DNA of 64,000 nt, taken from contig DGVB01000015.1 of assembly GCA_002395805.1 (NCBI GenBank), positions 8,974-72,973 on the forward strand, read 5' to 3'. The DNA is from Bacteroidales bacterium UBA4295. GTDB lineage: Bacteria > Bacteroidota > Bacteroidia > Bacteroidales > Paludibacteraceae. Positions 1,282-46,676 of the stretch are shown one piece after another. The notes below the pieces were generated by a model. It did not search any database, was not told the DNA's origin, and saw nothing but the letters and a program-made list of their open reading frames with translations. Position 1 is the stretch's first letter. Every line of letters begins with the position of its first letter. The position numbers and the translations under genes are program-made.

Positions 1282-2746
1282 AATCCATTATCGTTTCTAT
1301 CCCCCGCTCGCGGTGGATGAGATGGATGCGGACAGGATATTTCTCCTTCAGATGCTTCGCCAGATGTTCGGCGCAATAGACGGATCGGTGCTGGCCTCCC
1401 GTACAGCCGAAAGCCACCTGCAGATGTTCAAAACCGCGCTCGATAAACCGCTCTACATGATGATCCACGAGGGCATAGACAGACTCGAGGAAAGAGAGAA
1501 TCTCGCCGTCCTGCTCCAGAAAATCTATCACAGGCTGATCCAGACCCGTCAGAGATTTGTATTCGTCATACTTACCGGGATTATGGGTGCTTCTGCAATC
1601 AAACACATATCCGCCGCCATTGCCGGACTTGTCCTCGGGAATGCCGCGTTTAAACGAGAAGGAATAGATGGTAACACTAAGACCGCTGCGCTGTACGACC
1701 GCTTGCGCTGTAAGACCGTCCTTCGGACTGACAGAATACAGACCGCTACGCTGACAGAGTACAGACTGATTCACAAGGCTATCAGCGAGTTCGCGGAGGT
1801 AGGGGTAGTCCTTTATCTCCGCAAGCACTTCGCGTAAATTGCGCAGGGCATTGGGGATAGACTCCAGGAAATGAGGTTTGCGTTCGAAATAACCTCTGTA
1901 GCCGTAAGCGCCGAGTACCTGCAGTGTCCTAAAGAGGACAAAATGCGGCAAGTCAGCCCGCCAGGCGGCTTTATCTATTTTGAATTCGTCATTCGTAATT
2001 TGTAATTTCTCCAACTCATCCAGGTAGGCGTCTATCAGTTCTTCGCGGAGCGAGGCTGGGATATTGGCTTTGGCTTGCCATAATAGCGAAGCCACGTCGT
2101 ACTGGGTAGGTCCGCGGCGGCCGCCCTGAAAATCGATGAAATACGGTTGACCGTCTTTGATCATGATATTGCGGCTCTGGCAATCGCGGTACATAAAAGA
2201 CCGCTGCGCTGTTAGACCGCTACGCTGTAAGACCGTTTCACTGTTAGACCGCTGCGCTGTTAGATTTGCAACCAAGCGGTCAAAATCGTCCTCCAGTTTC
2301 GGTTCGCTGAACTCGATCTTGGTGCCCTTGAGGAAGCAGTATTTGAAATAGTTCAGATCCCATCGGACAGACCGTTCGTCGAAAGCGGGTACCGGGAAAC
2401 AGTAGTTCCAATTAAAATTCTGCGCTCCCTCCACCTGTATATGCGCGAGCGCGCGTATGGCGCGTTCTAATAAGGTGCGTTCCTCCGGCAGAAAGCAGCC
2501 GGTCTCCCGTCCATGGCGGATGGCGTCAAAAAGGAGCGTATCGCCCAGGTCCTCCTGGGTATAAGTCATCTCGTCTTCGCTGACCTGATAGACTTCGGGC
2601 ACAGGCAGACCGAGCGCATGGAAATGGCGCGCCATATAGATGAAGGCGCGGTTCTCGTCGCGGTTCGTCCCCTCCACACGAATGACCGTGCGGCCGGACT
2701 CGTCCGTCTCACGCGTATAAACCCTATTGGAACCCTGCGGCTTCAT
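1280..2746 (-). CDS. AmgK-like sugar phosphotransferase fused to a RapZ C-terminal domain
   Basis: The 488-residue protein has an aminoglycoside-phosphotransferase fold: QEDLGDTLLFD near residue 70, catalytic YRDCQSRN near 187 and metal-binding FIDFQGGRRGP near 204. Residues about 365-488 match the RapZ C-terminal domain (YVFDCRSTHNP, TGLDQPV, FGCTGGQHRSV, HRERG), which in E. coli binds glucosamine-6-phosphate. The kinase half resembles AmgK, which phosphorylates MurNAc/GlcNAc at C1; the MurU-like gene is next. Two family A arrays are in frame: 2199-2262 adds about 20 residues (TAQRS, LQRSG) just before the catalytic loop, and 1681-1770 fills the interdomain linker. The N-terminus begins directly at the GSNR segment, shorter than the homologs I remember; a stop codon within the flanking repeat rules out an earlier start. 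Confidence 0.85.
   Translation of the reverse strand: MKPQGSNRVYTRETDESGRTVIRVEGTNRDENRAFIYMARHFHALGLPVPEVYQVSEDEMTYTQEDLGDTLLFDAIRHGRETGCFLPEERTLLERAIRALAHIQVEGAQNFNWNYCFPVPAFDERSVRWDLNYFKYCFLKGTKIEFSEPKLEDDFDRLVANLTAQRSNSETVLQRSGLTAQRSFMYRDCQSRNIMIKDGQPYFIDFQGGRRGPTQYDVASLLWQAKANIPASLREELIDAYLDELEKLQITNDEFKIDKAAWRADLPHFVLFRTLQVLGAYGYRGYFERKPHFLESIPNALRNLREVLAEIKDYPYLRELADSLVNQSVLCQRSGLYSVSPKDGLTAQAVVQRSGLSVTIYSFSFKRGIPEDKSGNGGGYVFDCRSTHNPGKYDEYKSLTGLDQPVIDFLEQDGEILSFLESVYALVDHHVERFIERGFEHLQVAFGCTGGQHRSVYCAEHLAKHLKEKYPVRIHLIHRERGIETIMD
1681..1770. repeat. Family A array 1 (four micro-hairpin units) in the fusion linker
   Basis: Units start GACC and carry GC-TGC-GC, GC-TTGC-GC, GTCC-TTC-GGAC and GC-TAC-GC, each followed by TG and a short A-rich spacer. 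The array is in frame and encodes the linker between the kinase and RapZ domains. Confidence 0.85.
2199..2262. repeat. Family A array 2 (four perfect 16-nt units)
   Basis: Four head-to-tail 16-mers at 2199, 2215, 2231 and 2247 all start GACC. Their cores are GC-TGC-GC, GC-TAC-GC, GT-TTC-AC and GC-TGC-GC; the stem change in the third unit is compensated on both sides. Because 16 is not a multiple of three, successive units are read in different frames, all open. Confidence 0.9.
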
Positions 2747-2779
2747 TAATGATTAATGATTAATGATTAATGATTATTA
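2747..2779. repeat. Family C phased word array upstream of the fusion kinase
   Basis: Four to five ATTAATG-type words fill the gap between the lipid kinase stop and the start codon of the AmgK-RapZ fusion. No promoter element is visible, so the two genes are probably cotranscribed. Confidence 0.8.
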
Positions 2780-3703: not shown

Positions 3704-3733
3704 GATATCATTTAAGATTTTCAAACGCGAGTG

Positions 3734-3765
3734 CAAAGGTACAACAAAAATTGCACATACGCAAA
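3734..3765 (-). promoter_or_regulatory. Promoter of the lipid kinase operon
   Basis: Minus-strand TTTG (3762-3765) and TACCTTTG (3734-3741) are separated by 20 bases. A 33-base stretch covering the box and spacer is identical to the dxs promoter at 63834-63865. Confidence 0.9.
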
Positions 3766-3788
3766 TTTTTGAGCGTTTTTTTGCTGTG

Positions 3789-13917: not shown

Positions 13918-13989
13918 GATCGGCCTACGGCCTGTAAGACCGCTGCGCTGTAAGACCGTTACACTATAGGATCGCTGCGCTGTAGGATT
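13918..13989. repeat. Family A array 3, between rubrerythrin and mnmA
   Basis: Four units: GGCC-TAC-GGCC, GC-TGC-GC (13935-13950), GT-TAC-AC (13951-13966) and GC-TGC-GC (13967-13982), with 16-base periodicity. This is the only intergenic array of the family here and lies between the converging genes. Confidence 0.88.
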
Positions 13990-13994: not shown

Positions 13995-15125
13995 TTATAG
14001 AATTATTCCTCCTCCGACAACCAAGTTGTCCTGATAGAGGACGACGGACTGACCGGGCGTGACGCCCCAGACGGGCTCGCAGAAGGACAGAGAGAAGACC
14101 TCTCCCCGACCCTCCCTGTGTGGGAGGGAGAAGGGAGGGGTTTTTAGTTGTACCGCTTTGGAACGATAGCGTATCTTAGCCATGATCGGTTTAGCGGGGT
14201 CCGGGATGGGTTTGATCGGGGTGACGAGCCGGAAGCGCAGCGATGAGGCATACATATCGTCGTTGGAGCCGAGTGTGACACGGTTCGCATCGGCATCGAT
14301 ACGGGTGACGTACGCGGGATGGCCGAGTGCGATACCGAGTCCTTTGCGCTGTCCGATGGTGTAGTTGACGAAGCCGGCATGCGTACCTAACACCTTCCCC
14401 TCCGCATCGACATACTCTCCCGCGCGCACGCGTTCATCATAATCGGGCACGTTCGCGCGCAGGAAGGTGCGATAGTCGTCATCGGGGACAAAGCATATCT
14501 CCTGGCTCTCGCGTTTGGTAGCGAGGGATTCATATCCGTGCGCCCGTGCTATCTCTCGGACCTGCGTTTTGGTATAGTCGCCGAGGGGGAAGAGGGTTCG
14601 GCGGAGCTGGGGTTCGGTGAGCATCCAGAGGAAATAGGTCTGGTCCTTATTCGTATCCGCCGCCGCCGTCAGATAGCAATGTCCCTCGCGCTCCACGATA
14701 CGTGCGTAGTGACCGGTGGCGATATAATCGCAGCCCATCTCGTCAGCCAGGGCGAGCATCTCTCCCCATTTGATGGCATAGTTGCAAAGGACACAAGGGT
14801 TCGGCGTCCTGCCGGACATATATTCGTCGATGAAATTCCGAATGACACACCGCTTGAAGGGTTCACGGAAATCGACTATATGATGCTCGAATCCCATGCG
14901 CTCGGCATTATGCTTCGCCTCCATGATCGATTCGACCGTGCAGCACCCTTTTTCTTTGGCGAGACAGGAGTCCTTCATACTGTCGTAGGTACGGAAGGTG
15001 ACGCCCACCACCTCATAGCCCTGCTCCAGCAGCAGCATGGCGGAGACGGTAGAGTCGATGCCGCCGGACATACCGAGCAGCACTTTGTGCTGCGATTTAC
15101 GATTTGACGATTTACGATTTACCAT
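13995..15125 (-). CDS. mnmA: tRNA-specific 2-thiouridylase MnmA
   Basis: This 376-residue enzyme puts sulfur on U34 of tRNA Lys, Glu and Gln. Motifs are the PP-loop GMSGGIDSTVS, the first catalytic cysteine in TPNPCVLCN, the tRNA-binding GHYARI and the second cysteine in SQEICFVPD. The start at 15125 is chosen because it follows the stop of the upstream transporter by one base; an earlier ATG at 15185 would overlap that gene by 59 bases. A family C array (GATTTACG words) at 15098-15122 encodes the first dozen residues (VNRKSSNRKSQ), and a family B palindrome at 14095-14145 adds a loop (TPPFSLPHREGRG) in the C-terminal barrel. Confidence 0.95.
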   Translation of the reverse strand: MVNRKSSNRKSQHKVLLGMSGGIDSTVSAMLLLEQGYEVVGVTFRTYDSMKDSCLAKEKGCCTVESIMEAKHNAERMGFEHHIVDFREPFKRCVIRNFIDEYMSGRTPNPCVLCNYAIKWGEMLALADEMGCDYIATGHYARIVEREGHCYLTAAADTNKDQTYFLWMLTEPQLRRTLFPLGDYTKTQVREIARAHGYESLATKRESQEICFVPDDDYRTFLRANVPDYDERVRAGEYVDAEGKVLGTHAGFVNYTIGQRKGLGIALGHPAYVTRIDADANRVTLGSNDDMYASSLRFRLVTPIKPIPDPAKPIMAKIRYRSKAVQLKTPPFSLPHREGRGEVFSLSFCEPVWGVTPGQSVVLYQDNLVVGGGIIL

Positions 15126-15126
15126 T

Positions 15127-16986
15127 TTATTGCTGCATATCGACGAGTTTGGTATAGAATCCGCCGAGGGCGTATAGTTGTTCATGTGTGCCTCGCTCGA
15201 CTATCTGTCCCTCATGTAGGACACAGATGAGGTCGGCATGGCGTATCGTGGAGAGGCGATGGGCGACGACGAGGGTCGTACGGTCCTTCATCAGATGCTC
15301 GAGCGCCTCCTGTACGAGCCGTTCGGACTCGGAGTCGAGCGCCGAGGTAGCTTCGTCGAGAATGAGCACGGGTGGATTCTTGAGGATCGCGCGCGCGATG
15401 CTGAGCCGCTGTCTCTGTCCTCCGGAGAGGCGGCTGCCTCGGTCGCCTATCACGGTCCGGTATCCCTGCTCCATGGCGGAGATGAACTGATGTGCATTGG
15501 CAATGCGTGCGGCTTTCTCCACCGCCTGCTCCCATGTCATGCCGTCCGGCGCAGGGAGGGAGGTATCGACACCGAAGGTGATGTTATTAAAGACCGTATC
15601 GTTGAAGAGGACGGGTTCCTGGCAGACGATACCCATCATTGATCGTAGGTCATGGGTAGCGAAGCGGCGTATATCCACCCCATCGATCATGACCGCGCCC
15701 GCCGCAGGGTCGTAGAAGCGCGGCAGGAGATCTGTGAGGGTCGTCTTGCCGCTGCCGGACTGGCCTACGAGCGCCACCGTCCGGCCTTTGGGGATCGTCA
15801 GGTTGATATCCCTCAGCACTTCTCTCTCCGGAACATAGGCAAAAGAGACATGCTCGAAAGCGATCTCCCGGTCGAACGCCACCGCCTGCGGCGCTGCGGG
15901 TTCGGGGATATTGGAGACCGTAGAGAGCACGGCGTCGATCCGCTCCAGCGAAGCCATTCCGCGTCGGATACCGTAGGCGGCTTTGGAGAGGTCTTTCGAG
16001 GGATTGATGATCGAATAGAAGATCACCAGATAATAGATAAACGTGGAGGCATCGATCGTAGCATGATCGCTGAGGATCAGCAGTCCTCCGAACCAGAGGA
16101 TCACTGCTATGAGCGCCGTTCCGAGGAACTCCGAGAGGGGGTGCGCCAGATAATAGCGGCGGTTGATGCGGTTGAAGGTAGCGCGTGTAGCGTTAATAAG
16201 CGCCGAAAAGCGTACGCGCAGTTTGCTCTGGGCGTTGAATCCTTTGATGACCCGCAAGCCGAGGAGGGTCTCGTCGATCGCAGAGAGGATCTCCGCGTTC
16301 TGCTCCTGTCCCTGCTTCGATGCACGTTTGAGACTCCGCCCAATGCGCCCGATGAGGAAGACCGAGACGGGCATGAGGAGCAGGACGAAGAGGGTGAGCT
16401 GCCAGGAGATGACGAAGAGGGTGATGAGGTACACAATGATCATGATCGGGTCCTTGAAGAGTATATCCAGCGCCGACATGATCGACGCCTCCACCTCGTT
16501 GACATCATTGGTCATGCGGGATATCACATCGCCCCTCCTTGCCTCCGTGAAATAGCCCATAGGGAGCGAGAGTATCTTGTCGTAGAGCTGCTGCCTCAGG
16601 TCGCGCAGAACGCCCGTGCGGATGGGCACCATGAAATAGTTCGCCAGCCATGCCGTGCTGCATTTGAGGCCGGTCATCAGCACGAGGAAGAGACCTAATA
16701 GCATCAGCACGTACCCCGCCCCGTGCAGGGCTATCTGTTCGTTGAGAAGGCAATAGAGATTCGTTCGCAGCGCCGCGATGGTCTGCTGCAGCCCTTGAAC
16801 CTGATCCAGGTTAACCCATTCAACCTCCATCTCCGTGAGGCCGAATAAGATCCGCAGGACGGGGATGATCGCTGCGAACGAAAAGAGCGAGAGCACCGTC
16901 GAGAGCAGGTTGAACAGGATATTCAAGCCCATCTGCCCTTTATAGGGGGGCACAAAGCGACGTAATATAGTGATGTATTGCCGCAT
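15127..16986 (-). CDS. ABC exporter, MsbA-like (fused permease-ATPase)
   Basis: This 619-residue half-transporter has six membrane helices in residues 1-340 and an ATPase domain with Walker A GQSGSGKTTL, Q-loop CQEP, signature LSGGQRQRL and Walker B VLILDEATSALD. It lies 2 bases after lpxK, a lipid A kinase gene, as MsbA often does, so flipping of lipid A across the inner membrane is the likely job. Sequence alone does not separate MsbA from multidrug exporters. It is part of a tight nine-gene envelope operon. Confidence 0.9.
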   Translation of the reverse strand: MRQYITILRRFVPPYKGQMGLNILFNLLSTVLSLFSFAAIIPVLRILFGLTEMEVEWVNLDQVQGLQQTIAALRTNLYCLLNEQIALHGAGYVLMLLGLFLVLMTGLKCSTAWLANYFMVPIRTGVLRDLRQQLYDKILSLPMGYFTEARRGDVISRMTNDVNEVEASIMSALDILFKDPIMIIVYLITLFVISWQLTLFVLLLMPVSVFLIGRIGRSLKRASKQGQEQNAEILSAIDETLLGLRVIKGFNAQSKLRVRFSALINATRATFNRINRRYYLAHPLSEFLGTALIAVILWFGGLLILSDHATIDASTFIYYLVIFYSIINPSKDLSKAAYGIRRGMASLERIDAVLSTVSNIPEPAAPQAVAFDREIAFEHVSFAYVPEREVLRDINLTIPKGRTVALVGQSGSGKTTLTDLLPRFYDPAAGAVMIDGVDIRRFATHDLRSMMGIVCQEPVLFNDTVFNNITFGVDTSLPAPDGMTWEQAVEKAARIANAHQFISAMEQGYRTVIGDRGSRLSGGQRQRLSIARAILKNPPVLILDEATSALDSESERLVQEALEHLMKDRTTLVVAHRLSTIRHADLICVLHEGQIVERGTHEQLYALGGFYTKLVDMQQ

Positions 16987-16988: not shown

Positions 16989-18008
16989 CTATTTCCGTTT
17001 TTTGACGTTTTCGCGTACGTAGGTCAGTATCTGTCTGTCGAAATTCTCTTTGTCCGAACAGAAGCGCAGGGTTATAGGGAGCGCGATGAGACGTTTGCCG
17101 ACCGCCGCCAGCCTGTCCGCGAGGGGGGTGGTACGCAGGCGCTGGATATCTTTCTCGGTCGTCAGCACGAAGTCAAAATGCTTCGCGGCAGCGAGGATAT
17201 CCTCTATATCCTGCGGGTTATACTGGTGATGATCGGGATAAGCCAGCAGTTCTGCCTGCGGATAGATTGTCCTCACGTAGTCGAGCATATACTGCGGCTG
17301 CGCGATGCCGCAGAGGACCAGCGGCGTGCCTGCCTGCTCCATCGGAGCGTACTTGATGCCGGCGAAATGGAGCTGCTGATAGGTAGGCAGATGGAGTCTG
17401 TTATCCACCACCCGCATGTCTATCGGGCGGATGTTGTCCGGACATTTGGTGACGACGACGGCATCCGCCTTCAGGGCGCGCGAAGGCAAATCGCGCAGGG
17501 AGCCCCAGGGGAGCATATGGTCGTCTATATAGAGATGGTCGTAGGGCGTGAGCAGCACCGTGAATCCGCATCGTATAGCCCGATGCTGCATCGCGTCGTC
17601 GAGCACGACCACATCCAGCGTCTCCAGCTGGCGTTTGAGTTGCTTCACCCCTCGCACCCTGCTCTCGCACACAGCTATCGGCACCTCCGGGAAAGCGCGG
17701 TGCAGCTGCATCGCCTCGTCCCCTATGCTCTCCACGGTAGAGGTATGGTCCGCCATGACGAAGCCGCGCGTGGCACGTTTGTAGCCCCGCGAGAGGATCG
17801 CCGGATGATAGCCGTGCTCCAGCAGCAGGCGGACGATATACGCCGTCATGGGCGTCTTGCCCGTCCCGCCTACCGCTATATTGCCCACACATATCGTAGC
17901 CACATCCACGGAGAAAGACGGCAGCAGATGCCGGTCAAAGAGCACATGGCGGAGGGCTACACCTGCGGCGTAGAGCCCGGCGAGCGGTATGTATAGCAGG
18001 TTTTTCAA
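16989..18008 (-). CDS. lpxK: Tetraacyldisaccharide 4'-kinase LpxK
   Basis: This 339-residue kinase adds the 4'-phosphate to the lipid A precursor at the inner membrane. The N-terminal LYIPLAGLYAAGVALRH is a membrane anchor, and VGNIAVGGTGKTPM (about residues 43-56) is the P-loop. SRGYKR, VVLDDAMQH and a C-terminal LTTEKDIQRL are further family marks. Length and motif order are normal. It is separated from sppA by a family C array and from the MsbA-like gene by 2 bases. Confidence 0.96.
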   Translation of the reverse strand: MKNLLYIPLAGLYAAGVALRHVLFDRHLLPSFSVDVATICVGNIAVGGTGKTPMTAYIVRLLLEHGYHPAILSRGYKRATRGFVMADHTSTVESIGDEAMQLHRAFPEVPIAVCESRVRGVKQLKRQLETLDVVVLDDAMQHRAIRCGFTVLLTPYDHLYIDDHMLPWGSLRDLPSRALKADAVVVTKCPDNIRPIDMRVVDNRLHLPTYQQLHFAGIKYAPMEQAGTPLVLCGIAQPQYMLDYVRTIYPQAELLAYPDHHQYNPQDIEDILAAAKHFDFVLTTEKDIQRLRTTPLADRLAAVGKRLIALPITLRFCSDKENFDRQILTYVRENVKKRK

Positions 18009-18038
18009 TTACGAATTACGAATTACAAATTACGAATA
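18009..18038. repeat. Family C phased word array between sppA and lpxK
   Basis: Words of the form AATTACG are repeated four times with small variations (ACGAATTACAAATTACG). A similar array occupies 19815-19848 between rnhB and sppA (GTTATTTGT words) and another lies at 23519-23545 (ATTCGTA words) before thrS. Confidence 0.8.
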
Positions 18039-20461: not shown

Positions 20462-22711
20462 TTAAAACGGATAGCCTATGGCGAAATGGAAGGTCATATC
20501 GTCTTTCCACCCTAACCCATTCGGCGCGGTACGCCACTGTTTGCCTTCCGCGATACGGCTCGGGTCGTGCAGTTTGACGCCGAAATCGACACGGAAGATG
20601 AATATCGAGAGGTCGAAACGGATACCTACCCCGTAGCTCCACGCGATCTGTTTGTAGAACTCATTGAAGAGGAACACCCCTCCGGGCTGCGATTCGTAGT
20701 CCCGGATCGTCCATATGTTGCCGGCATCGAGGAAGGCCGCCAGCTCCAGAAAACTGAGCACCTTAAACCGGTACTCTATATTCATGTCCAGTTTGATATC
20801 GCCTACCTGCAGGTCATAGACCATCGTGTTGCCGTTCCCGCGGAAGGTACCGGGACCCAAGGTTCGTGCCTGCCATCCGCGCACGCTGTTCGACCCGCCA
20901 CCGAAATAGCGTTTCTCAAACGGCAGCACAGAGGCGTTCAGGTACGGTACTGCTACGCCCAGACCGATATGGCCTACCAGATGGTGCTCCGGCGTGATGA
21001 TACCATGGTAAGTGAAATTGATATCCCCTTTCGCATACTGGGCAAACGGGATCCGCCACAGCATATGCTGGCCGGACTCGTTCTGCGGCAGCGAAGCCGC
21101 TTTCGCCAGACCGTACAGCACATTGCCTGCCGTCTCGGCGCGCAAGGCTAACTGCAGATAAGAGCGGTTCGGAAAACGCGGATTGAGTGTGCTGAAGGTG
21201 CCGGTATAACTCCAGTCCAGGATGAAATGATCCTCGTAACTGGCCTTTAACACCGATGCTTTCTTGATAAACTGCTCGCGGAATTTATCCGACATCCACG
21301 GCACATAGATATAGTTGATGTCTATGAGGTTGAACTGGTGGGTCCATCGGCTGCCGGGCGTGCGGGGGATGATATAGCCCAGACCCGCATTGGCGATCGT
21401 ACGCGTATATTCCTCCGGCCGCTGCTGGTAGTTATAGGCGATATTCACTTTCACATTCGACGGGAATAGCAATCCCGCCTCCCCTTTGGCCTCAATCGCC
21501 CTTCCTCCGTTAGCGCGCCATTCGTACGAAGCGCGTGCACCGAGGGTAAGCACTTCCGCACCTTTGAAGATGTTCTTGTTCGTATAATTGACCCCGGCAG
21601 CTACGCCCCAGTCCCCCGCTGAATAGGTGCCTTCCACCTCCACAGCGAACGAGTTAAGCCTTCCTCTCGAGATGGTGATATAGCAGTCCAGCAGCGTGTC
21701 GCCTACCGGCGTGAAAGCGATATCGACGTATTTCACGGGCGCCAGCGCATTCATGCGCGCGTAGGTCCGCTCCACGCGCCACTCGGCATAGCGTACCCCC
21801 GGGACCAGACGGCTCGCCTGACGCAGCGCATCTTTTCTTAAAAACCGCCTGCCTGTCCAGCTGTATTCATTCCCGTACCGGTCGCTGTCGCGCTTCAGCA
21901 CGATCGAATCCGGCAGATGACTCGGGTCGTAGTCGATCTGGTAGTACATCTTCCGCACCGAATACCGGGTTCGCAGTTTCTTCAGCGAAGCCGAGTCCAA
22001 CTGCGCCACATACGGCGCGAAATGGATCTTCACGTCCACTTCGTGCGAGTTAAGCGAGCTGTCGGCGGTAAACTCTAACATCGATTTCTCGAAATAGAAA
22101 TACCCCCTGTTGCGCAGCGTCGTCGAGATACGTTCGCGCTCTTCGTCCAGCGTCGCGGTGGAGAACTGTTCTCCTTCCTTGACTTTGCATCGCTCGTCCT
22201 CCGCGATCACCCGTACCGATTCTTCGGGGATATCTACCGTGTAATGGCGGATCATATAGGGCTGGTGGGCGGTGACGAGGTAAGTGAGGTCGATCTTGCG
22301 GTCTTTGATGATTTTCTGCGTATCCACTTCGGCGTGAAAATAACCCATATTGTTCATCTGCTGCCGCAACTGCTGCATGCTGATAGCGGTCAGCTCTTCG
22401 TCGTATATCACCGGCGCTTCGCCCATCTTGTGGGCATTGCGCGCCAGGCGTTTGTTGGTCTTGCTGGTCGTGTCCGTCGGGGCGGTGTTATAGACATGCA
22501 GCTGCAGTTTCCAGAAGCCGAAGATCTCCGTGTTCTGTTTCTGCCTGAGGTAGCTGCGCAGGTCGGAGGCGGAGACGGATTTATCGTCCACGCATCTGAC
22601 TTTGGCTTTATTCAGCAGGTACTGCCCCTCCGGCACGAATTTCGTCGTGTTGCAGGAAGCGAGTGCCAGTACCAGCGCCAGCATCGGTAATATGTACCGC
22701 CAGATTTTCAA
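20462..22711 (-). CDS. TamL-like BamA-family outer-membrane lipoprotein
   Basis: 749 residues. A lipoprotein signal peptide ends in the lipobox LASC (Cys20). POTRA-like repeats occupy roughly residues 30-340, and a 16-strand Omp85 barrel follows, with the loop-6 motif as SNSVRGWQ near residue 610 and the final strand ending HFAIGYPF. Lipidated TamA relatives (TamL) replace TamA in Bacteroidota and act with TamB in outer-membrane assembly; no tamB is in the window. It overlaps the start of the upstream methylase gene's stop by 4 bases, which shows tight operon packing. Confidence 0.9.
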   Translation of the reverse strand: MKIWRYILPMLALVLALASCNTTKFVPEGQYLLNKAKVRCVDDKSVSASDLRSYLRQKQNTEIFGFWKLQLHVYNTAPTDTTSKTNKRLARNAHKMGEAPVIYDEELTAISMQQLRQQMNNMGYFHAEVDTQKIIKDRKIDLTYLVTAHQPYMIRHYTVDIPEESVRVIAEDERCKVKEGEQFSTATLDEERERISTTLRNRGYFYFEKSMLEFTADSSLNSHEVDVKIHFAPYVAQLDSASLKKLRTRYSVRKMYYQIDYDPSHLPDSIVLKRDSDRYGNEYSWTGRRFLRKDALRQASRLVPGVRYAEWRVERTYARMNALAPVKYVDIAFTPVGDTLLDCYITISRGRLNSFAVEVEGTYSAGDWGVAAGVNYTNKNIFKGAEVLTLGARASYEWRANGGRAIEAKGEAGLLFPSNVKVNIAYNYQQRPEEYTRTIANAGLGYIIPRTPGSRWTHQFNLIDINYIYVPWMSDKFREQFIKKASVLKASYEDHFILDWSYTGTFSTLNPRFPNRSYLQLALRAETAGNVLYGLAKAASLPQNESGQHMLWRIPFAQYAKGDINFTYHGIITPEHHLVGHIGLGVAVPYLNASVLPFEKRYFGGGSNSVRGWQARTLGPGTFRGNGNTMVYDLQVGDIKLDMNIEYRFKVLSFLELAAFLDAGNIWTIRDYESQPGGVFLFNEFYKQIAWSYGVGIRFDLSIFIFRVDFGVKLHDPSRIAEGKQWRTAPNGLGWKDDMTFHFAIGYPF

Positions 22712-23520
22712 CTCTCCATTCTTCTGAATTCTGCCAAAACGATTGCGGTTGCGATCGCTACATTGAGGCTCTCGGATGTCTCTGCGCCCTTGGGATATGA
22801 AGGTATCCGGATCGAATGTGTGATGAGTTTCCTTACCTCCTCCGAGATGCCATTCCCTTCATTGCCCATGACTATTATAGACCGCTCCGCTGTAGGACCG
22901 CTCTGCTGAAGGACCGCTCCGCTGTAAGACCGTCCTTCGGACTGTAGGACTTCGTACATATCTTTGCCGTCCAGCAGCGTGCCGTAAATCCTGACTCCTG
23001 ACAAAGCAACACCCCCTTTAGGGGGTCTGGGGGCCGACCTGATTCCGGTTAGCCACTCAGGCAGGTCGGTGTAGTGTATGCGGACACGGACAAGGGCTCC
23101 CATGGTGGCTTGCACCACTTTGGGGTTGTAGCAATCCGCCGTATCGGGCGAGCAGACGATATCGTGCACTCCGAACCAGGCGCATGTGCGGATGATCGTA
23201 CCTAAGTTGCCCGGGTTCTGCACGCCGTCCAGAGCGAGAATAACCTCTCCCCCCGCCCTCTCCTCAAGAGAGGGAGCCAAAGGAAGGATGGGTTTGCGGA
23301 AGACCGCAATGGTGCCTTGAGGCGTTTGGAGACCGCTCATCTGCTCGATCTCTGTACGCGTAGCATTGTCCCCCTCTCGAAAGAGGGAGACCAACTCGAA
23401 GCCCTTCTGCAACTCTTCCACGCATTTATCGCCCTCGGCTACAAAGAGACCGAGTTCGTCGCGGAATTTCTTCTGCTGCAGCGAGCGAACCTGCTTTATC
23501 TGCGCTTTGCTTACGCTCAA
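22708..23520 (-). CDS. SpoU/TrmH family RNA 2'-O-methyltransferase
   Basis: 270 residues. An N-terminal substrate-binding segment (FVAEGDKCVEEL) is followed by a SPOUT knot domain with LDGVQNPGNLGTIIRTCAWFG, IIVMGNEGNGISEEV and SLNVAIATAIVLAEFRR, the three SpoU motifs. It methylates ribose in rRNA or tRNA; the target is unknown. Repeats are unusually dense: a family A array at 22880-22954 inserts QSGPTAERS just before motif 2, family B palindromes lie at 23008-23038 and 23243-23278, and a CTGACTC array is at 22988-23002. All three motifs are intact, so the enzyme is probably functional. It overlaps tamL by 4 bases. Confidence 0.9.
   Translation of the reverse strand: MSVSKAQIKQVRSLQQKKFRDELGLFVAEGDKCVEELQKGFELVSLFREGDNATRTEIEQMSGLQTPQGTIAVFRKPILPLAPSLEERAGGEVILALDGVQNPGNLGTIIRTCAWFGVHDIVCSPDTADCYNPKVVQATMGALVRVRIHYTDLPEWLTGIRSAPRPPKGGVALSGVRIYGTLLDGKDMYEVLQSEGRSYSGAVLQQSGPTAERSIIVMGNEGNGISEEVRKLITHSIRIPSYPKGAETSESLNVAIATAIVLAEFRRMES
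22880..22954. repeat. Family A array 4 inside the SpoU methyltransferase
   Basis: Four units with cores GC-TCC-GC, GC-TCT-GC, GC-TCC-GC and GTCC-TTC-GGAC, then a partial unit. The first three are spaced 16 bases apart. The array is in frame and adds about 20 residues directly before the MGNEGNG motif. Confidence 0.88.
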
Positions 23521-23542
23521 TTCGTAATTCGTAATTTGTAAT

Positions 23543-37970: not shown

Positions 37971-37971
37971 A

Positions 37972-39463: not shown

Positions 39464-40327
39464 ATGGTTCTATTAGCAGACAGCGGCAGTACGAAGGTGC
39501 ATTGGTGTCTTGTCACCGCGAGCGGACAATGTTCCGATGTCTTCACCGATGGTATTAATCCGCTCTTCCAGACATCCGATGCGATGCGCAACAGCATCAG
39601 CAACCAGCTTCTACCGAAGATAGCGCAGCTTCTTTGGGCAGGTACGCTGACGCATGTTTTCTTCTACGGAGCAGGCTGCACGCCGGAGAAAAAAGTGTTT
39701 GTGCAAAAAGCACTGGAGACCGTCTTTAAGAAAGCGGAAGTGTTCGTCGCTTCTGATATGTTAGGTGCTGCGAGAGGTCTGCTCGGACATAATGCAGGCG
39801 TGGCGTGCATCTTAGGTACAGGTTCGGGCAGTTGCTATTACGACGGCGAGAACATCGAATGGTGTGTGCCTTCGCTGGGCTATATCCTGGGCGACGAAGG
39901 GTCTGCTGCGGTGTTGGGCAAGAGACTTGTAGGTGACCTGTTGAAGAATCAGTTGGGCGACGACCTTAAGGAGGCTTTCTTCAAGGAATATGAGACCTCT
40001 ATGGCAGATATCATCGAGAAAGTGTACCGTCAGCCTTTCCCGAACCGGTTCTTGGCGAAGTTGTCCAAGTTCTGTGCCGATCATATAGACGACCCCCGCA
40101 TTCACGACCTGGTCTATGACCATTTTGTGCAGTTCATCCGCCGGAATTTGGTACAGTACCATGCAGAAGCGCCTATCGGTTTCGTAGGCTCTATCGCTTA
40201 TTACTACCGGCCGATCCTGGAGGAAGCCATGAAGGCAGAAGGGCTGCCATTAGGCACCATTCTGCAGGATCCGATAGAAGGATTGAAAGAATATCACAAA
40301 GACGCTATTGTGCCTACAACGGCGTAA
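39464..40327 (+). CDS. BadF/BadG-type N-acetylglucosamine kinase-like ATPase
   Basis: 287 residues of the ASKHA fold. Phosphate-1 motif ADSGSTKVHW is at residues 5-14, the phosphate-2 motif CILGTGSGSCYYDG near 116, GDEGSAAVLGK near 145, and the adenosine region FVGSIAYYYRP near 245. Relatives phosphorylate N-acetylglucosamine or related sugars in the cytoplasm. The leader before the start codon is a phased word array (AAATGGT type, 39424-39460). The last 34 bases overlap the end of the converging methyltransferase gene. Confidence 0.85.
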   Translation: MVLLADSGSTKVHWCLVTASGQCSDVFTDGINPLFQTSDAMRNSISNQLLPKIAQLLWAGTLTHVFFYGAGCTPEKKVFVQKALETVFKKAEVFVASDMLGAARGLLGHNAGVACILGTGSGSCYYDGENIEWCVPSLGYILGDEGSAAVLGKRLVGDLLKNQLGDDLKEAFFKEYETSMADIIEKVYRQPFPNRFLAKLSKFCADHIDDPRIHDLVYDHFVQFIRRNLVQYHAEAPIGFVGSIAYYYRPILEEAMKAEGLPLGTILQDPIEGLKEYHKDAIVPTTA

Positions 40328-41538
40328 AAGAGTGTGGGTTTACCGGCCACACGGCAGCCGATGATAAAAGCTGTGCCTCCGTCCCGGAGGTGCAGCTTTT
40401 TCTTAAGTTGATCGGGTGTAAGGGGATAATTGCGAGTTATAATATTCGCTTGTTGGTCTCTTGCCCCTTTGGGGGTAAGAGGGAAAGGGGCTTCTATCAC
40501 TTGCCAAACACGCCCCGGGAAATCGGGTACAAGTGTCTCCGAACAATACAGATGCGTGTTGACGTCCAGCTTCTGCAGACCGAACCGCTCCGCTATTAGT
40601 TTATATGCCCCGGCTTTGAGAATAGCGCCGTTAGGTTCGTATAGATAAGCCCCCTCCAACTCCCCCCGGAGGGGGAGAGAAGAAACTTCTCGCTCTTCTT
40701 CTTTTGTGAAGGAGAAAGCCTGGTCCTTTTTTGCCAAATCTATGGCGGTGATCTGTCCTGCTCCGCCGCTCAACAGCAGCACTTCTTTGACCTCGTTCTT
40801 GACGGCCACAACATAAACGTCCCAATTTATTTTTGTACCATGAACATGGTCACTTTGTAACCTGTTTATCGCTTGCGTCAGGTCAAGCATCGGAGACAGT
40901 TTAAGCATTATTCTGCCGTCCGGAGCCAAGTGCGAAAGGAGATCCGGCAGCAACTCCACTACGTTCGGTGTGCAGTCTTCGAGGCGGAAAACCTTTCCTC
41001 CGTGAGAGTCTCTGCGGGCAGGATCAAGGAAAATCAGGGAATAGCCCCCCTCCATTCCCCCCTGAAGGGAGGAAGAAAGAAATTCTTCGGCCGTACAATT
41101 ATGTACGGAGATGGAGCCCTTTGTACCTTGTACATTGTTCCTTCGTACATTAAAATTGTGCTCGGCTATACGACATAGTTCCTCGTTTTGCTCGACATAG
41201 TCGGTGTGTGCAAAATGTTCGCTTAAGAAATACGTATCCACGCCGTAGCCGCCGGTGAGGTCTAATAGAGACCGTCCTTCGGACTGACAGAGTACAGACC
41301 GCTGCGCTGACAGACCGCTTTGCTGAAAGAGAGACGCTTTATACCTTGCGGTGGCCTCTGACGAGCACTGCTCGCAACTCAGCCGCACGGGATACCACCA
41401 ATCCTCTATGGCCGCGAAAGCAGGCAGCTTGTCTGCCGTCCGTTCACGACCCTCGACTTGCTGCAAAAACCACCGCCATTCGGCATCGGAGAGGTGTTTG
41501 TATTTATCGCGTTGTAGCGCTAAGTCTGCTGCCCGCAT
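40294..41538 (-). CDS. Class I SAM methyltransferase with THUMP-like domain
   Basis: 414 residues. The methyltransferase core has motif I LLDLTGGYGVDTYF near residue 95, VEQNEELCRIAEHN near 120 and the catalytic LIFLDPARRD near 175 (D-P-A-R, as in RNA/DNA N-methylases). A C-terminal THUMP-like part (IAERFGLQKLDVNTHLY, TPDQLKKKLHLRDGGTAFI) matches the PG1098-type family. Its likely substrate is RNA. Repeats are dense: family A at 41270-41330 inserts QSGLSAQRS just before motif I, family B at 40460-40495, 40646-40682 and 41043-41075, and phased words at 40836-40862 and 41105-41155. Catalytic motifs remain intact. Confidence 0.87.
   Translation of the reverse strand: MRAADLALQRDKYKHLSDAEWRWFLQQVEGRERTADKLPAFAAIEDWWYPVRLSCEQCSSEATARYKASLFQQSGLSAQRSVLCQSEGRSLLDLTGGYGVDTYFLSEHFAHTDYVEQNEELCRIAEHNFNVRRNNVQGTKGSISVHNCTAEEFLSSSLQGGMEGGYSLIFLDPARRDSHGGKVFRLEDCTPNVVELLPDLLSHLAPDGRIMLKLSPMLDLTQAINRLQSDHVHGTKINWDVYVVAVKNEVKEVLLLSGGAGQITAIDLAKKDQAFSFTKEEEREVSSLPLRGELEGAYLYEPNGAILKAGAYKLIAERFGLQKLDVNTHLYCSETLVPDFPGRVWQVIEAPFPLTPKGARDQQANIITRNYPLTPDQLKKKLHLRDGGTAFIIGCRVAGKPTLFYAVVGTIASL
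41270..41330. repeat. Family A array 5 inside the methyltransferase
   Basis: Three units with cores GTCC-TTC-GGAC, GC-TGC-GC and GC-TTT-GC. The encoded insert lies immediately before the SAM-binding motif I. Confidence 0.87.
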
Positions 41539-42574
41539 AGTAGAATTTCAGGATTTCTTCGTATGTTTTTCCTTCGGAAGCCATGACTGCCGCACCGATC
41601 TGGCACAATCCGGCTCCATGCCCCCAGCCATGTCCTGTAAATGTCCAGAGAGGCCTACGTTCGTCGCCTTCCTGAATGGATGGGGGATCTATTTCGAACC
41701 ATGAACTATAGAGACAGGTGCGCGAAAGCCACAGGCGGATTTTCAACTCCTTGCCGATTATTTCCGTATGTTTTGTGCCTACTATTTTCAGTTCGCAGAT
41801 CCGTCCCGAAGCACCTCTTTTAAGCGGAACAAGGTCTGTTATTTCTCCGAAGTCTATTCCTGATTTGGTGCGAATGATCTCACTCAGTTCCGCTGCGGTA
41901 TAGGTTACCTTCCAGTCGTGAAAATCTGTGGTTTCCTGGTCGTAGTCATTGAGAGATGTACCAAGGACAGATGTACGAGGTACGAGGGATTTTCTTTTCG
42001 GATCACACCAGTCGCACCGGACGGACTGAATATACGGTACATCGATGTCTTCCCAGCACGTGCGCCATACTTCCGTTCGTCCGCCGCAACACTTATGATA
42101 CCGGCAGTCGCATATTTCATCGCCGTATAGCAGTACCTGTCCGGCGGTAGCGCGCACGGCTTCTACGGCACGTTCGTTCATTCGGCGCAGGCCTTCATAG
42201 CGCTGACAGTGATCATCTGCACAGACGTCAAAACCTTCGTGGTTCGGTTTCTGCATCGCCCGGATAGCCCAGGAGCGACTGATAACGGCGTGTGCTTTGA
42301 GCAACTCCATCGGACTGTTGGCATTCATTTCCGAAGAAATAACCGAACAGAGGTATTCTTCAAGGTCGATGGTATTGATGGCTACTTGCCATGGTTTCCC
42401 TCCTTTTACTGGTGAAGAGCTCTGCTTGATCTCCAATGTGCCGGCGAACTCCTGGTCTTCATGTCTGTCCCAATGAAAACCGATACCGATACGCACATCC
42501 TTCAGCACGAAAGTGCTCTCGCGCTGCTCAAACTCAATGTGCGGGGCAGTTAATATGCCGACACGGATATTCAT
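41504..42574 (-). CDS. SpoIID/LytB domain peptidoglycan lytic protein
   Basis: 356 residues. The SpoIID core is clear: INTIDLEEYLCSVISSEMNANSPMELLKAHAVISRSWAI (with the catalytic Glu region), CDDHCQRYEG-like cysteine segment (VCADDHCQRYEG), YHKCCGGRTEVW and the C-terminal GHGWGHGAGLCQIGA motif. SpoIID cleaves glycan strands lacking stem peptides; non-sporulating Bacteroidota carry it in cell-wall turnover. No signal peptide is visible at the chosen start, which is odd for a wall enzyme. A phased array (GATGTACGAG words, 41955-41995) adds a loop (KRKSLVPRTSVLGTS). It overlaps the methyltransferase start by 35 bases. Confidence 0.88.
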   Translation of the reverse strand: MNIRVGILTAPHIEFEQRESTFVLKDVRIGIGFHWDRHEDQEFAGTLEIKQSSSPVKGGKPWQVAINTIDLEEYLCSVISSEMNANSPMELLKAHAVISRSWAIRAMQKPNHEGFDVCADDHCQRYEGLRRMNERAVEAVRATAGQVLLYGDEICDCRYHKCCGGRTEVWRTCWEDIDVPYIQSVRCDWCDPKRKSLVPRTSVLGTSLNDYDQETTDFHDWKVTYTAAELSEIIRTKSGIDFGEITDLVPLKRGASGRICELKIVGTKHTEIIGKELKIRLWLSRTCLYSSWFEIDPPSIQEGDERRPLWTFTGHGWGHGAGLCQIGAAVMASEGKTYEEILKFYYAGSRLSATTR

Positions 42575-42618
42575 TATTCATTATTCATTATTCATTATTC
42601 ATTAATCATTATTCATTC
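42571..42618. repeat. Family C phased word array (TTCATTA)
   Basis: Five TTCATTATTCATTA-type words span the SpoIID start codon, the intergenic gap and the glycosyltransferase stop codon. Confidence 0.85.
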
Positions 42619-43990: not shown

Positions 43991-43998
43991 CAAAATTA
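43991..43998 (-). promoter_or_regulatory. -7 box before the glycosyltransferase
   Basis: TAATTTTG on the minus strand followed by a start codon 16 bases later. There is no TTTG at the -33 position, so this promoter is weaker than the others. Confidence 0.5.
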
Positions 43999-44002
43999 CG
44001 TT

Positions 44003-44785
44003 CTATCCTAACGGGCTGAATATGTCCATGCCGAAAGCGGCGGTGAAAGCGTCGGCTTTTTTCAGGTTCTCGGCGGTGTCCAGTTGAACTCCTCTGCCGG
44101 GTGTCATCAGTAAGATACGGTCGGAGAGCGCAAGCGCCAGATCCAGTTCATGTGTAGAGATCAGGATGGTCTTGCCTTGCTCGTGCGCCAGACGGCGAAG
44201 CAGGCGCAGAATGAGTATCCGATGCGGCAGATCCAGATGCGCCGTAGGTTCATCCAGCAGAATGATCGGTGTCTGTTGCGCGAGGGCTTTGGCGATCAGG
44301 ATCCGCTGTTTCTCGCCGTCCGAATGGGCGTTAAAGAAAGAGAACCCCACCCCGTCCCTCCCCTCAAGGGAGGGAGCAGAAAAGCCCACTTGCTGCAGGG
44401 AATCGGCAATGATCGCTTCGTCTTCGTCCGTCAGTCCGTCGAGAAACGAAGTATAGGGATATCGTCCGAGTGCCACGACGTCATGTACGGTGGTGTTATC
44501 CATCGAGAGCCGCTCGGTGAGAACGAGGGCCACACTCTTTTCCGGTCTGTATTCTGTATTCTGTATTCTGTATTCTCCTCTTAACGCCGGTTGCAATCCT
44601 GCGAGGGTACGTAGCAAAGTCGATTTACCGCAGCCGTTCGGTCCGAGCATGCAGACCATCTCGCCCTCATAGAGCGAGAACGAGAGGTCGGATTGAACGA
44701 CTGCCTCACCGAATGGCCGGCTTGCTCCGGTTCTAAACCGGTAACCGATCGTTAGCTTATTCGTAGTAATAGAGACGTTGGACAC
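44003..44785 (-). CDS. ABC transporter ATP-binding protein, FecE/BtuD type (orphan)
   Basis: 260 residues: Walker A MLGPNGCGKSTLLRTL, Q-loop region VALVLTERL, signature HSDGEKQRILIAKAL, Walker B IILLDEPTAHLD and the switch ISTHELDLAL. It looks like the ATPase of an iron-chelate or cobalamin importer, but no permease or binding-protein gene is adjacent. Two insertions are repeat-encoded: CTGTATT words at 44548-44577 (EYRIQNTEYRPEK) before the Q-loop, and a family B palindrome at 44343-44380 (SAPSLEGRDGVG) directly before the signature. It overlaps the murF-alr gene by 29 bases. Confidence 0.85.
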   Translation of the reverse strand: MSNVSITTNKLTIGYRFRTGASRPFGEAVVQSDLSFSLYEGEMVCMLGPNGCGKSTLLRTLAGLQPALRGEYRIQNTEYRPEKSVALVLTERLSMDNTTVHDVVALGRYPYTSFLDGLTDEDEAIIADSLQQVGFSAPSLEGRDGVGFSFFNAHSDGEKQRILIAKALAQQTPIILLDEPTAHLDLPHRILILRLLRRLAHEQGKTILISTHELDLALALSDRILLMTPGRGVQLDTAENLKKADAFTAAFGMDIFSPLG

Positions 44786-46676
44786 GACGGGAGACGGAGG
44801 TTAGAATTTCGTATGTTATTGTACCGAGTTTGTCGGCGAGTTCCTGCAGCGGCATATGTTCTCCGAACACTTCGGCTATATCGCCCGGCCGCGCGTCAGC
44901 GCCGGTGACATCTATCATCGCCTGGTCCATGCATACATTGCCGACCACCGGGCATCGCTTGCCGCGCACCCACACTTCGCCGCCGTAATTGGAGAACCGC
45001 CGGTCAAAACCATCGGCGTAGCCGATCGGGATGACCGCTATCGTGCGATCCTCGTTGAGTTGGGTATGCCGCCCGTAGCCGATTGTCTCGCCGGCTTTGA
45101 CGGTCTTGACGGAGAGGATAGTGGTCTCGAGCGTGCACACATTCCGCAGTTTGGCGCCAGCGAAGGAGAATCCGTATAGACCGATACCGAGGCGGCACAT
45201 GTCGAACTGGTATTTTGCGAACCGCTCTATGCCCGCGGAGTTGCAGATATGCTTGAGAATCCTGACTCCTGATTCCTGACACCTGACTCCTCTGATCAGT
45301 TCCTCCGCGCAATCGTCGAAATAGCGGATCTGCTCGAGGGTGAAGTCGTCAAACTGGGGCTCGTCGGAGCCTGCCAGATGGGAGAAGACGGACGCCACGC
45401 GTACTGCTTTCTGGTGCGTCAGGCGGTCGATGAGCCACGGCATGTCTTCTTTGTAGAACCCGAGACGATGCATGCCGGAGTCGATCTTGATATGGATCGG
45501 CACATTCTCCAGCCCTTTCGCTTCGGCTGCTGCGATGACGGTCTTGAGCGACTGATGGGAATAGACGTTCGGTTCGAGGTTGTTCTCCAGGATCAGATCC
45601 ATCGCCGCCACTTCGGGGTCCATGATAATAATCGGCAGTGTGATGCCTGCGCGGCGCAGTTCGACTCCTTCGTCGGCCACCGCCACCGCCAGATAATCAA
45701 CCAGTCCCGAAGCCTGCAAGGCGCGACTGACTTCGACGCTGCCGGCGCCGTAGGCGAAGGCCTTGACCATGCAGGTCAGTTTGGTCTCGGGTTTGAGCAG
45801 CGAGCGGAAATACCGGACGTTATCGACGAGCGCGGAGAGGTTCACTTTGAGCACCGTTTCGTGGGTCTGATGCAGAATGCGCGAAGCGATCGTCTCTTCG
45901 TCGTAACCGAGCGCCCGCATGACCGCAGCGCAGGTGCGCACGTTCTGGTGCGTCGGATCTTCGATCACCTGCTCGGAGTGGATGAACAGTTTCATTTTCT
46001 CCGCCCGTTTCTGCTCCAGCGAGACGAAGTTCTCGTCGTGCTCATGTCCGATATAGGTGATCACGCCGATAGTAGGGCGAATGATACGCTCCAGCTTCTC
46101 CATCTCTCCGGGCTGCGAGATCCCCGCCTCAAAGATCGCCAGAACAGGTCTTTCAGGCGAAGCCGGTCTTACAGCGAAGCGGTCTTTCAGCAAAGCGGTC
46201 TTACAGTCCGCAGGACGGTCAGCGTCAGCTAACTGCCATACGCTCAGCGGCACGCCTATCTGGGAGTTATAGGACTTGGGCGAACGGATAACCGTATAGT
46301 CGTCCTTGAGCAGCTGGTAAAGCCACTCTTTGACGACCGTCTTACCGTTGGAGCCGGTGATACCGATGACCTGGCCGTGGAACCGCGAACGCACATAGAC
46401 GGCGAGCTCCTGCAACGCAGCTACCGCGTCGCCCGTCACGAACGCTTTCACGCCCTTTGCCTGCAATTCCGGGATATATTTCGCGCCGTCGTTCTTGTCC
46501 GTCTTGATAGCGAAGAAAAGGACGTCGGAATAATCCCTTGTACATTGTGAATTGTGCATTGTGCATTGTACATTCAGCTGCCTGCTGTCCGTCAGCAGAT
46601 AGCGGATATCCGGATCGCCCTCGCCGGACACCTGTGCGATAGAGCCGATGACTTGCTTGATTTCCGATAGTTTCAT
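44757..46676 (-). CDS. MurF-alanine racemase fusion with a shortened MurF half
   Basis: 639 residues. The C-terminal 365 residues are a complete alanine racemase: CMVKAFAYGAGSVEV with the PLP lysine, RLGIGLYGF, and the catalytic tyrosine in TIGYGRHTQ. The N-terminal 275 residues are MurF-like, with P-loop GITGSNGKTVVKEW, EAGISQPGEM and IGHEHDENF. After KLFIHSEQVI the chain jumps to a C-domain-like piece (TCAAVMRALGYDEETIASRI) and then to racemase; the ADP-binding C-terminal MurF domain (NDSYN region) is absent. Normal Bacteroidota fusions are about 820 residues. Repeats inside: family A array at 46147-46220, and phased words at 46537-46575 and 45262-45300. The start 46676 follows the promoter; ATG 46700 lies in it. 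Confidence 0.85.
   Translation of the reverse strand: MKLSEIKQVIGSIAQVSGEGDPDIRYLLTDSRQLNVQCTMHNSQCTRDYSDVLFFAIKTDKNDGAKYIPELQAKGVKAFVTGDAVAALQELAVYVRSRFHGQVIGITGSNGKTVVKEWLYQLLKDDYTVIRSPKSYNSQIGVPLSVWQLADADRPADCKTALLKDRFAVRPASPERPVLAIFEAGISQPGEMEKLERIIRPTIGVITYIGHEHDENFVSLEQKRAEKMKLFIHSEQVIEDPTHQNVRTCAAVMRALGYDEETIASRILHQTHETVLKVNLSALVDNVRYFRSLLKPETKLTCMVKAFAYGAGSVEVSRALQASGLVDYLAVAVADEGVELRRAGITLPIIIMDPEVAAMDLILENNLEPNVYSHQSLKTVIAAAEAKGLENVPIHIKIDSGMHRLGFYKEDMPWLIDRLTHQKAVRVASVFSHLAGSDEPQFDDFTLEQIRYFDDCAEELIRGVRCQESGVRILKHICNSAGIERFAKYQFDMCRLGIGLYGFSFAGAKLRNVCTLETTILSVKTVKAGETIGYGRHTQLNEDRTIAVIPIGYADGFDRRFSNYGGEVWVRGKRCPVVGNVCMDQAMIDVTGADARPGDIAEVFGEHMPLQELADKLGTITYEILTSVSRRVQRLYYYE
46147..46220. 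repeat. Family A array 6 inside the MurF half (opposite orientation)
   Basis: Read on the minus strand the units have cores GTCC-TGC-GGAC, GC-TTT-GC, GC-TTC-GC and GGC-TTC-GCC. Relative to the gene this array is inverted compared with arrays 1, 2, 4 and 5, yet it is also open in frame and adds about 25 residues just before AIFEAGIS. Confidence 0.87.

Follow-up and report, generated by a model that had tools for sequence, protein, structure and literature searches.

Family A arrays in the window

The window analyzed here, a stretch of 64,000 nucleotides from the metagenome-assembled genome (MAG) Bacteroidales bacterium UBA4295 (contig DGVB01000015.1), contains six arrays of a short tandem repeat that we call family A, each unit of which runs from a GACC tag through a stem, a short loop and the complementary stem to TG. 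An original prediction, made from the sequence of the window alone, had described these arrays as covarying micro-hairpins lodged in frame in conserved genes. We found all six at the places it gave, with 23 units whose stems are GC/GC (15 units), GTCC/GGAC (4), GT/AC (2), GGC/GCC (1) and GGCC/GGCC (1).

The first two arrays, both read on the plus strand, lie within an APH/RapZ-C gene encoded on the minus strand (1280 to 2746). Array 1 (1681 to 1753) has four units with the stems GC, GC, GTCC and GC, the fourth of which is preceded by a 10-nt heptad gap, ACAGAATACA, and heptads run on to about position 1768; array 2 (2199 to 2259) has four units with the stems GC, GC, GT/AC and GC, followed by TTAGA. 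Array 3 (13918 to 13982, plus strand) is intergenic, between a rubrerythrin-like gene that ends at 13912 and a tRNA_Me_trans (MnmA-type) gene (13995 to 15185), and its four units are GATC with GGCC/GGCC, a GC unit, a GT/AC unit ending in TA, and GATC with GC. Array 4 (22880 to 22944, plus strand; four units with GC, GC, GC and GTCC, then TAGGA) is found in the minus-strand gene of a SpoU methylase (22708 to 23520), and array 5 (41270 to 41325, plus strand; three units with GTCC, GC and GC and a 10-nt heptad gap, ACAGAGTACA) in the minus-strand gene of a PG_1098-like methyltransferase (40294 to 41538). In both proteins the segment encoded by the array is largely without counterpart in the solved homologue, 2i6d for SpoU and 3ll7 for the PG_1098-like protein. 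Array 6 (46154 to 46220, minus strand; named 46147 in the original prediction) has four units with the stems GTCC, GC, GC and GGC and lies in a MurF-alanine racemase gene (44757 to 46700, minus strand), where it is the sole genic array of the window whose GACC strand is coding.

Five of the six arrays are therefore genic, as predicted, and they occur in either orientation, the GACC strand being antisense in four and sense in one. The proposed form of the unit, from GACC to TG, had to be relaxed: 22 of the 23 units fit GA(C/T)C-X-TG, with GATC in place of GACC at the start of two units of array 3, and the GT/AC unit at 13954 ends in TA. A further match to the pattern, at 33551, is not followed by the 3-nt spacer and GA (sssGA) described below and is probably due to chance. 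An Rfam scan of the window returned a single tRNA as the only hit reaching its gathering score.

Architecture of the unit

Gaps of up to 30 nt between neighboring units (n = 429, in 207 arrays) measured 3 nt in 341 cases, 10 nt in 57, 0 nt in 3, 17 nt in 1 and 19 to 30 nt in 27, and all 57 of the 10-nt gaps read sssGANNsss, 41 of them with the same sss on both sides. Since the gaps fall on this grid of 3 and 10 nt, we consider the unit to be a heptad, sssGACC, joined to a hairpin module. The 16-mer can thus be divided into a 7-nt linker, in which sss is a largely species-typical trinucleotide, and a module of usually 9 nt, consisting of a 2- to 5-bp hairpin and then TG; the complementary strand of the whole unit reads CA-stem-c(GNA)g-stem-GGTC or has c(GNNA)g at its center. 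The 7-nt period is carried by the linker only and is interrupted by the hairpin module. A 2-bp stem with a 3-nt loop is present in 402 of 554 units, and a stem of 6 bp or more in one of the 554. The constancy of the tag is to be read with the search rule in mind, which demanded GACC, or GA(C/T)C for the 554-unit count. The 554-unit count and the flanking 3-mer test given below cover all loci except L052, L054, L072, L077, L080 and L086, while the counts of gaps, gene placement and strand bias cover all loci except these and L024, L025, L031, L088 and L089 to L189.

At its right end the array closes with sssGA in 186 of 201 cases, 34 of which continue as GACC or GATC and may represent a degenerate next unit; at its left end it begins with GACC, preceded by varied bases. 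GA is found at both array ends. In isolated units followed by GA, many of which belong to degenerate arrays or heptads, the flanking 3-mers are equal in 12 of 34 cases, against 4.1 on average and 10 at most in 1,000 shuffles; we assert no target-site duplication on this basis. Spacer identity is 0.555 within an array, 0.430 between arrays of one genome and 0.142 between genomes, in a comparison which is dominated by three genomes with 25 to 36 arrays and which covers all loci except L089 to L189, L012, L020, L024 and the first six. As the spacers are largely species-typical, the units have multiplied within lineages. Furthermore, the motif GCGNAGC on its own is not enriched outside the unit in the window (78 occurrences versus 71 for the reversed motif), and we therefore think that it is whole units that get copied.

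Stem covariation and the loop rule

All 22 cores tested in the window are fully complementary, whereas shuffling the letters within each core, a check put forward with the original prediction, gave a mean of 1.8 and a maximum of 7 in 5,000 trials. When the 3' arms were instead re-dealt among cores of equal length, the mean was 18.5 and the full 22 was reached in 61 of 5,000 trials; covariation within the window alone is therefore moderate, because GC/GC stems dominate. It becomes clear in a set of 436 units followed by TGnnnGACC, which was drawn from the loci available for this test without omitting any. Here, 75% of the 32 distinct 7-nt cores pair two deep (re-dealt mean, 41%; maximum, 59%), as do 80% of the 20 distinct 8-nt cores (mean, 40%; maximum, 65%), and 76% of the 17 distinct 11-nt cores pair four deep (mean, 13%; maximum, 47%). 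For the remaining core lengths, with 4 to 15 distinct cores each, shuffles in part equal the observed pairing. The outer pairs in this set are GC/GC in 299 units, GT/AC in 34, GG/CC in 24 and AC/GT in 5, with rarer others, and the longer stems include GTCC/GGAC and GGCGA/TCGCC.

The loops do not vary freely, as had been proposed; among 664 array units, freedom is confined to the middle of the loop, and its ends are constrained. On the complementary strand, hereafter the GNA strand, 547 of 596 three-base loops are purine-N-A and 456 are GNA, 115 further loops start with A, and the middle position uses all four bases (A in 321, C in 145, T in 67 and G in 63). Four-base loops are GNNA in 48 of 68 cases, 16 of these 48 being GNRA. 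C-G closes the loop in 624 of the 664 units, a count partly biased because many loci were found via a GC/GC seed. The 664 units come from all loci except L052, L054, L072, L077, L080, L086, L024, L025, L031, L088 and L230 to L259.

According to the available parts of PMC4686876, a GNA or GNNA loop together with at least two G-C pairs makes a DNA mini-hairpin, and GCGAAGC melts at 78°C. For the N4 promoter hairpins, the available text of PMC4496689 states that extrusion and stability depend on a loop with 5' G and 3' A and on a G:C closing pair, and that the hairpins form at a superhelical density of -0.035 with magnesium. Judged by sequence, the rule for the loop and closing pair of family A is the one given in the portions of PMC4686876 that we consulted for extraordinarily stable DNA mini-hairpins, and it agrees with what N4 promoter hairpins need in order to extrude; units of the family combine a GNA or GNNA loop with at least two G-C pairs, apart from those with GT/AC and AC/GT stems, which have fewer such pairs. 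Because only 16 of the 48 GNNA loops are GNRA, the element looks more like a DNA hairpin than an RNA hairpin.

Placement in genes

We examined 138 distinct arrays in 111 loci with a gene caller based on a simple longest-open-reading-frame rule. Genes contain 104 of these (the GNA strand is coding in 88 and the GACC strand in 16), another 13 are at gene ends and 21 are intergenic, whereas random placement would put 80% inside genes, 15% at ends and 5% between. Arrays are thus placed almost at random relative to genes. Idealized arrays have no stop in any frame of the GNA strand for eight of the nine common spacers, the exception being TTA; 67 of the 104 genic arrays lack stops in each of the three frames of this strand, and all reading frames are used. 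The frame is easily kept despite the 16-nt period because the GNA strand of idealized arrays is mostly stop-free in every frame.

Beyond the window, the same genome has 31 arrays, of which 23 are contained in open frames of 450 nt or more. Ten frames selected from among these match the Pfam families LytB, HhH-GPD/NUDIX, DEAD helicase, polyA polymerase head, 2-hydroxyacid dehydrogenase, TsaD family, DHH, DapB, CoaE and Dus, in agreement with the proposed in-frame residence in conserved genes. Locus L274 (contig C22 of G000) is a DHH-family gene with three family A arrays, two of which share nearly identical stretches of about 65 nt.

Distribution across genomes

The genome from which the window derives is a 1.5-Mb MAG with 61% completeness, in which GACCGCNNNGCTG has 76 matches, compared with 3 for the reversed pattern. 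The scan of this genome and its relatives, suggested with the original prediction, showed that the unit recurs in the genus: 36 congeners (Paludibacteraceae-type gut MAGs) have 1 to 246 matches each, the richest being G024 with 246 matches at 94% completeness. In 24 other families of the order, represented by one genome each, 0 to 9 matches were counted, mostly near the control; the largest excesses outside the family are in G043 (9 versus 1, with assorted loops in the nine matches) and G050 (8 versus 0).

A scan for tandem pairs in the named genome collection yielded at least 117 stretches; among 80 with titles, 70 belong to Paludibacteraceae, Bacteroidales or Bacteroidia MAGs and ten to others. 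Whole-genome counts against the control support the presence of the family in Flavobacterium sp. UBA7665 (54 to 6), Flavobacteriales NORP269 (53 to 6) and Lentisphaera marina (22 to 3), a named strain that carries family A arrays, and support it weakly in a Saprospiraceae MAG (51 to 34); the arrays themselves were seen on inspection of the loci. Matches in the high-GC taxa Actinoplanes, Amorphoplanes, Sinosporangium, Glaciihabitans and Alcaligenaceae, and in Spirosoma, were rejected as chance upon inspection of the loci; the controls there are high. An excess over the control remains in Actinoplanes (373 versus 149) and Amorphoplanes (394 versus 123), where the loops listed are assorted. No viral contig carries the exact tandem pair.

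With a stricter pattern applied to 395 genomes of the phylum, we counted 60 matches in the genome of the window, 14 in G201 and 11 in G324, the latter two from family f31 of the same class. One match was present in each of 15 genomes, three of which (G296, G300 and G355) are also from f31, while the control gave three single matches; the two matches in G267 fall in a larger repeated stretch. In the literature, searched mainly through titles and the openings of abstracts, no report of the family was recognized, and none of six 13-mers taken from the unit was matched in the full text of any paper searched.

In G201, loci L231 and L254 hold single units within a longer, nearly identical stretch that has imperfect inverted ends and is flanked by AAGANN heptads; this stretch may be a separate, larger repeat that captured the unit.

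Turnover between relatives and sister species

We compared two of the loops that host arrays in the window, those of SpoU and the PG_1098-like protein, for which 30 loci were taken from 46 matching genomes and 30 from 58, respectively. One of these loci (L155) is without left anchor, and 29 and 30 congeneric sequences were compared. Our script assigned 10 of the 59 sequences to family A, 18 to a 7-nt period, 5 to GC-rich hairpins and 26 to none of these; the rule for GC-rich hairpins is loose, three of its five calls (L130, L136 and L178) being trusted, and the degenerate family A loops L131, L135, L139 and L176 were sorted into other classes. At control lags of 4 to 6 and 8 to 11 nt, only three combinations of row and lag passed the threshold used for 7 nt.

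The comparison between sister species comprised 31 alignments (143 kb, 83 to 93% identity), with site classes assigned by eye. Of 30 unit sites, 3 were judged to be chance coding matches, and the other 27 are divided into 11 shared, 8 rearranged (for instance by an in-frame difference of 39 nt) and 8 replaced or absent. In place of family A we found heptads (L200/L217), a heptad-like stretch (L201/L222), GC-rich hairpins (two sites in L192/L229) and a CTAG-type repeat (L195/L215), together with three cases without a recognized repeat. According to this comparison, loops in conserved enzymes are rewritten by repeats on the time scale of sister species.

The unit itself changes unevenly. In 28 orthologous units that one sister species or both have in intact form, after removal of gapped units and of those with more than 40% mismatch, changes affect 5 of 390 constant positions, 6 of 31 loop centers and 819 of 8,845 flanking positions (9.3%). 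Conservation of the constant positions thus exceeds that of the flanks about sevenfold, which is not the case for the loop center (Fisher P = 1e-10 for constant versus flank, 3e-5 for loop center versus constant and 0.06 for loop center versus flank). Together with stems that covary across units, this is in line with the suggestion that each unit is maintained as a structure.

Other repeats were seen at or near family A sites. The CTAG-rich repeat of L215, in G098, is ACTAGTGAGACTAGGGCTACTAGTGA, at the site where the sister species (L195) has family A. In the window, a second family of GC-rich hairpins (CACCCCCTTTAGGGGGTCTGGGGGCC; CTCTCCCCGACCCTCCCTGTGTGGGAGGGAGAAGGGAGGGG) occurs at 23010 to 23035 and 14100 to 14141, inside the SpoU and tRNA_Me_trans genes, and L130, L136, L178 and L192 have pieces resembling it at other family A sites. 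Heptanucleotide tandem repeats lie at 45260 to 45291 and 46538 to 46574 in the MurF-alanine racemase gene, which also hosts array 6, and differing heptanucleotide repeats are positioned at gene boundaries (1248 to 1284, 2745 to 2776, 18007 to 18037, 23519 to 23543, 42568 to 42617 and 52714 to 52743).

Propagation of family A and alternative explanations

As our best explanation, held tentatively, we propose that family A is a dispersed DNA micro-repeat, neither a coding nor an RNA element, and that it may propagate through single-stranded DNA. In single-stranded or strongly supercoiled DNA the GNA strand would fold, and a polymerase could slip or switch template at the hairpin, so that units would be gained and lost on the 7/16-nt grid. 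At times a unit would be copied to another place beside a GA, conversion among copies would keep the frame uniform and the stems paired, and arrays would persist where a protein loop tolerates them, since that strand is mostly stop-free in all three frames. For cleavage by SbcCD, the available parts of PMC3733652 give a minimum stem length somewhere from 8 to 16 bp, and stems of only 2 to 5 bp would therefore escape it. A broader version of this proposal, which we find conceivable but doubtful, is that one process writes GNA mini-hairpins, heptanucleotides and GC-rich hairpins into the same permissive loops and swaps them in frame between sister species, family A being a minimal single-stranded-DNA element, constant only in its GACC tag, 7-nt phase and stable hairpin fold, in at least two phyla (Bacteroidota and Lentisphaera).

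Several results weigh against this explanation. There are no compensatory double changes in the 28 orthologous unit pairs, and both of the stem changes observed break a pair. Comparing orthologs with and without arrays, proposed originally as a way of dating insertions, revealed turnover in the sister species but no insertion with an exact before and after among the loci compared, and blastn found no clean empty site among the 39 gap events listed out of 306, in four pairs or at the sister-species sites. The standard DNA energy model assigns no more than -0.2 kcal/mol to two 2-bp units folded on the GNA strand, 0 to the opposite strand of one of them and -1.6 to a 3-bp unit, and for a 4-bp unit it prefers a different register, at -2.4. 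Slippage alone does not account for jumps between loci, for other classes or for Lentisphaera. Finally, the GNA strand is coding in 88 of 104 genic arrays (85%), more than the 60% predicted from the stops of 34 nongenic arrays (P = 1e-7). This bias would suit an action in mRNA or protein, through transcript hairpins or useful polar linkers in protein loops, an idea that we deem improbable: congeners hold heptads, other hairpins or nothing in the same loops, GNRA is found in just a third of the GNNA loops (16/48), every reading frame occurs, the GACC strand is the coding one in 16 genic arrays, and 21 arrays lie between genes.

The foremost competitor, which we regard as rather unlikely, is a nonautonomous element moved in trans, whereby an enzyme would recognize the single-stranded GACC-tagged hairpin and paste units after GA, much as has been proposed for RAYT/IS200-type enzymes and repetitive extragenic palindromes (REPs). 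The constant tag with a variable yet paired stem, the lineage-specific spacers, the presence in distant taxa and the form of the ends (sssGA on the right in 186 of 201, with 34 perhaps a degenerate next unit, and GACC after varied bases on the left) would all fit such a mover. The RAYT-like companion that the original prediction recommended looking for was, however, not borne out. Y1_Tnp was identified in 23 of 61 genomes (19 over the cutoff), including that of the window (one match, 28.4 bits), and was not found in G002, G026 or the richest genome, G024; the median copy number with Y1_Tnp over the cutoff is 27 versus 12 without (P = 0.47, 36 genomes, low power). Reverse transcriptase, present in 14 of 61 genomes, likewise shows no significant link (15 versus 12, P = 0.35, 36 genomes, low power), and Ku is absent from all 61; these three proteins, without the neighborhoods of the Y1 genes, made up the companion search. 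Still less probable in our judgment is a functional DNA site under selection or biased uptake, such as a protein-binding site, a supercoil buffer or a DNA-uptake-like sequence, which would explain the high conservation of constant positions between sister species and the hundreds of copies in some genomes but is at odds with a copy number of 1 to 246 among congeners, with sites lost or occupied by unrelated repeats in sister species and with a placement nearly random relative to genes. An artifact of assembly or binning, to which one might ascribe the contigs of G024 that end in arrays (C3, C4, C8 and C21), has a negligible probability, because two separately published MAGs share arrays at orthologous sites and the named strain L. 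marina carries arrays, in addition to the 76 matches against 3 in the genome of the window.

Comparison with known repeats

Rickettsia palindromic elements (RPEs) are single insertions of about 100 to 150 bp. Family A, by contrast, forms tandem arrays of 16- to 20-nt units with 2- to 5-bp stems; what the two have in common is palindromic repeats residing in frame within functional genes (described in part in PMC3733652), so that the likeness to RPEs, as anticipated, is one of behaviour only, unit size and tandem layout being different.

The tagged REPs of the GTAG and CGTC superfamilies, as portrayed in the sections of PMC3733652 available to us, are similar to family A in being multicopy short palindromes that have an unpaired, constant 4-nt tag on one end, compensatory stem variants and an occasional location in genes. 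According to the same sections, CGTC repeats, which also occur in Bacteroidetes, are without a dedicated transposase, while GTAG REPs are associated with the tyrosine transposase RAYT; family A has no significant link to Y1_Tnp. Its tag is GACC/GGTC instead of GTAG or CGTC, its stems of 2 to 5 bp compare with mostly 6 to 9 bp in REPs (5 bp being the shortest given there), and its units of 16 to 20 nt compare with 20 to 40 nt. Unlike REPs, it is tandem on a 7-nt grid and mostly genic (104 of 138 arrays), whereas REPs are mostly intergenic. Family A therefore differs from REPs in tag, stem length, location and transposase link.

Heptanucleotide repeats such as TAACTGA, reported from Beggiatoaceae, Cyanobacteria and some Bacteroidetes (PMC4679880), share with family A the 7-nt period, which in family A is confined to the linker, the scattered taxa, an occasional location in genes and, according to the parts of that article at hand, stops in all frames of one strand with the other strand open; no mechanism is known for them in that text. 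Plain heptads are described there as mostly intergenic in Beggiatoaceae, whereas in family A the heptad linker is joined to a hairpin module and arrays lie mostly in genes. Family A ties palindromic micro-repeats to these unexplained heptanucleotide repeats of Bacteroidota and Cyanobacteria.

The stems of N4 hairpins are 5 to 7 bp long. Family A shares with them and with d(GCGAAGC) the GNA or GNNA loop, the C-G closing pair and at least two G-C pairs (PMC4686876, PMC4496689), and N4 hairpins are stated in the available text to extrude from supercoiled DNA (PMC4496689). In the excerpts of these two sources, such hairpins are known as oligonucleotide chemistry or from individual promoters, whereas family A is a dispersed repeat family. 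Such a family would amount to a natural library, spread across the genome, of the smallest stable DNA hairpins in many stem and loop variants, and makes it testable whether 2-bp hairpins arise in living DNA and promote repeat spread.

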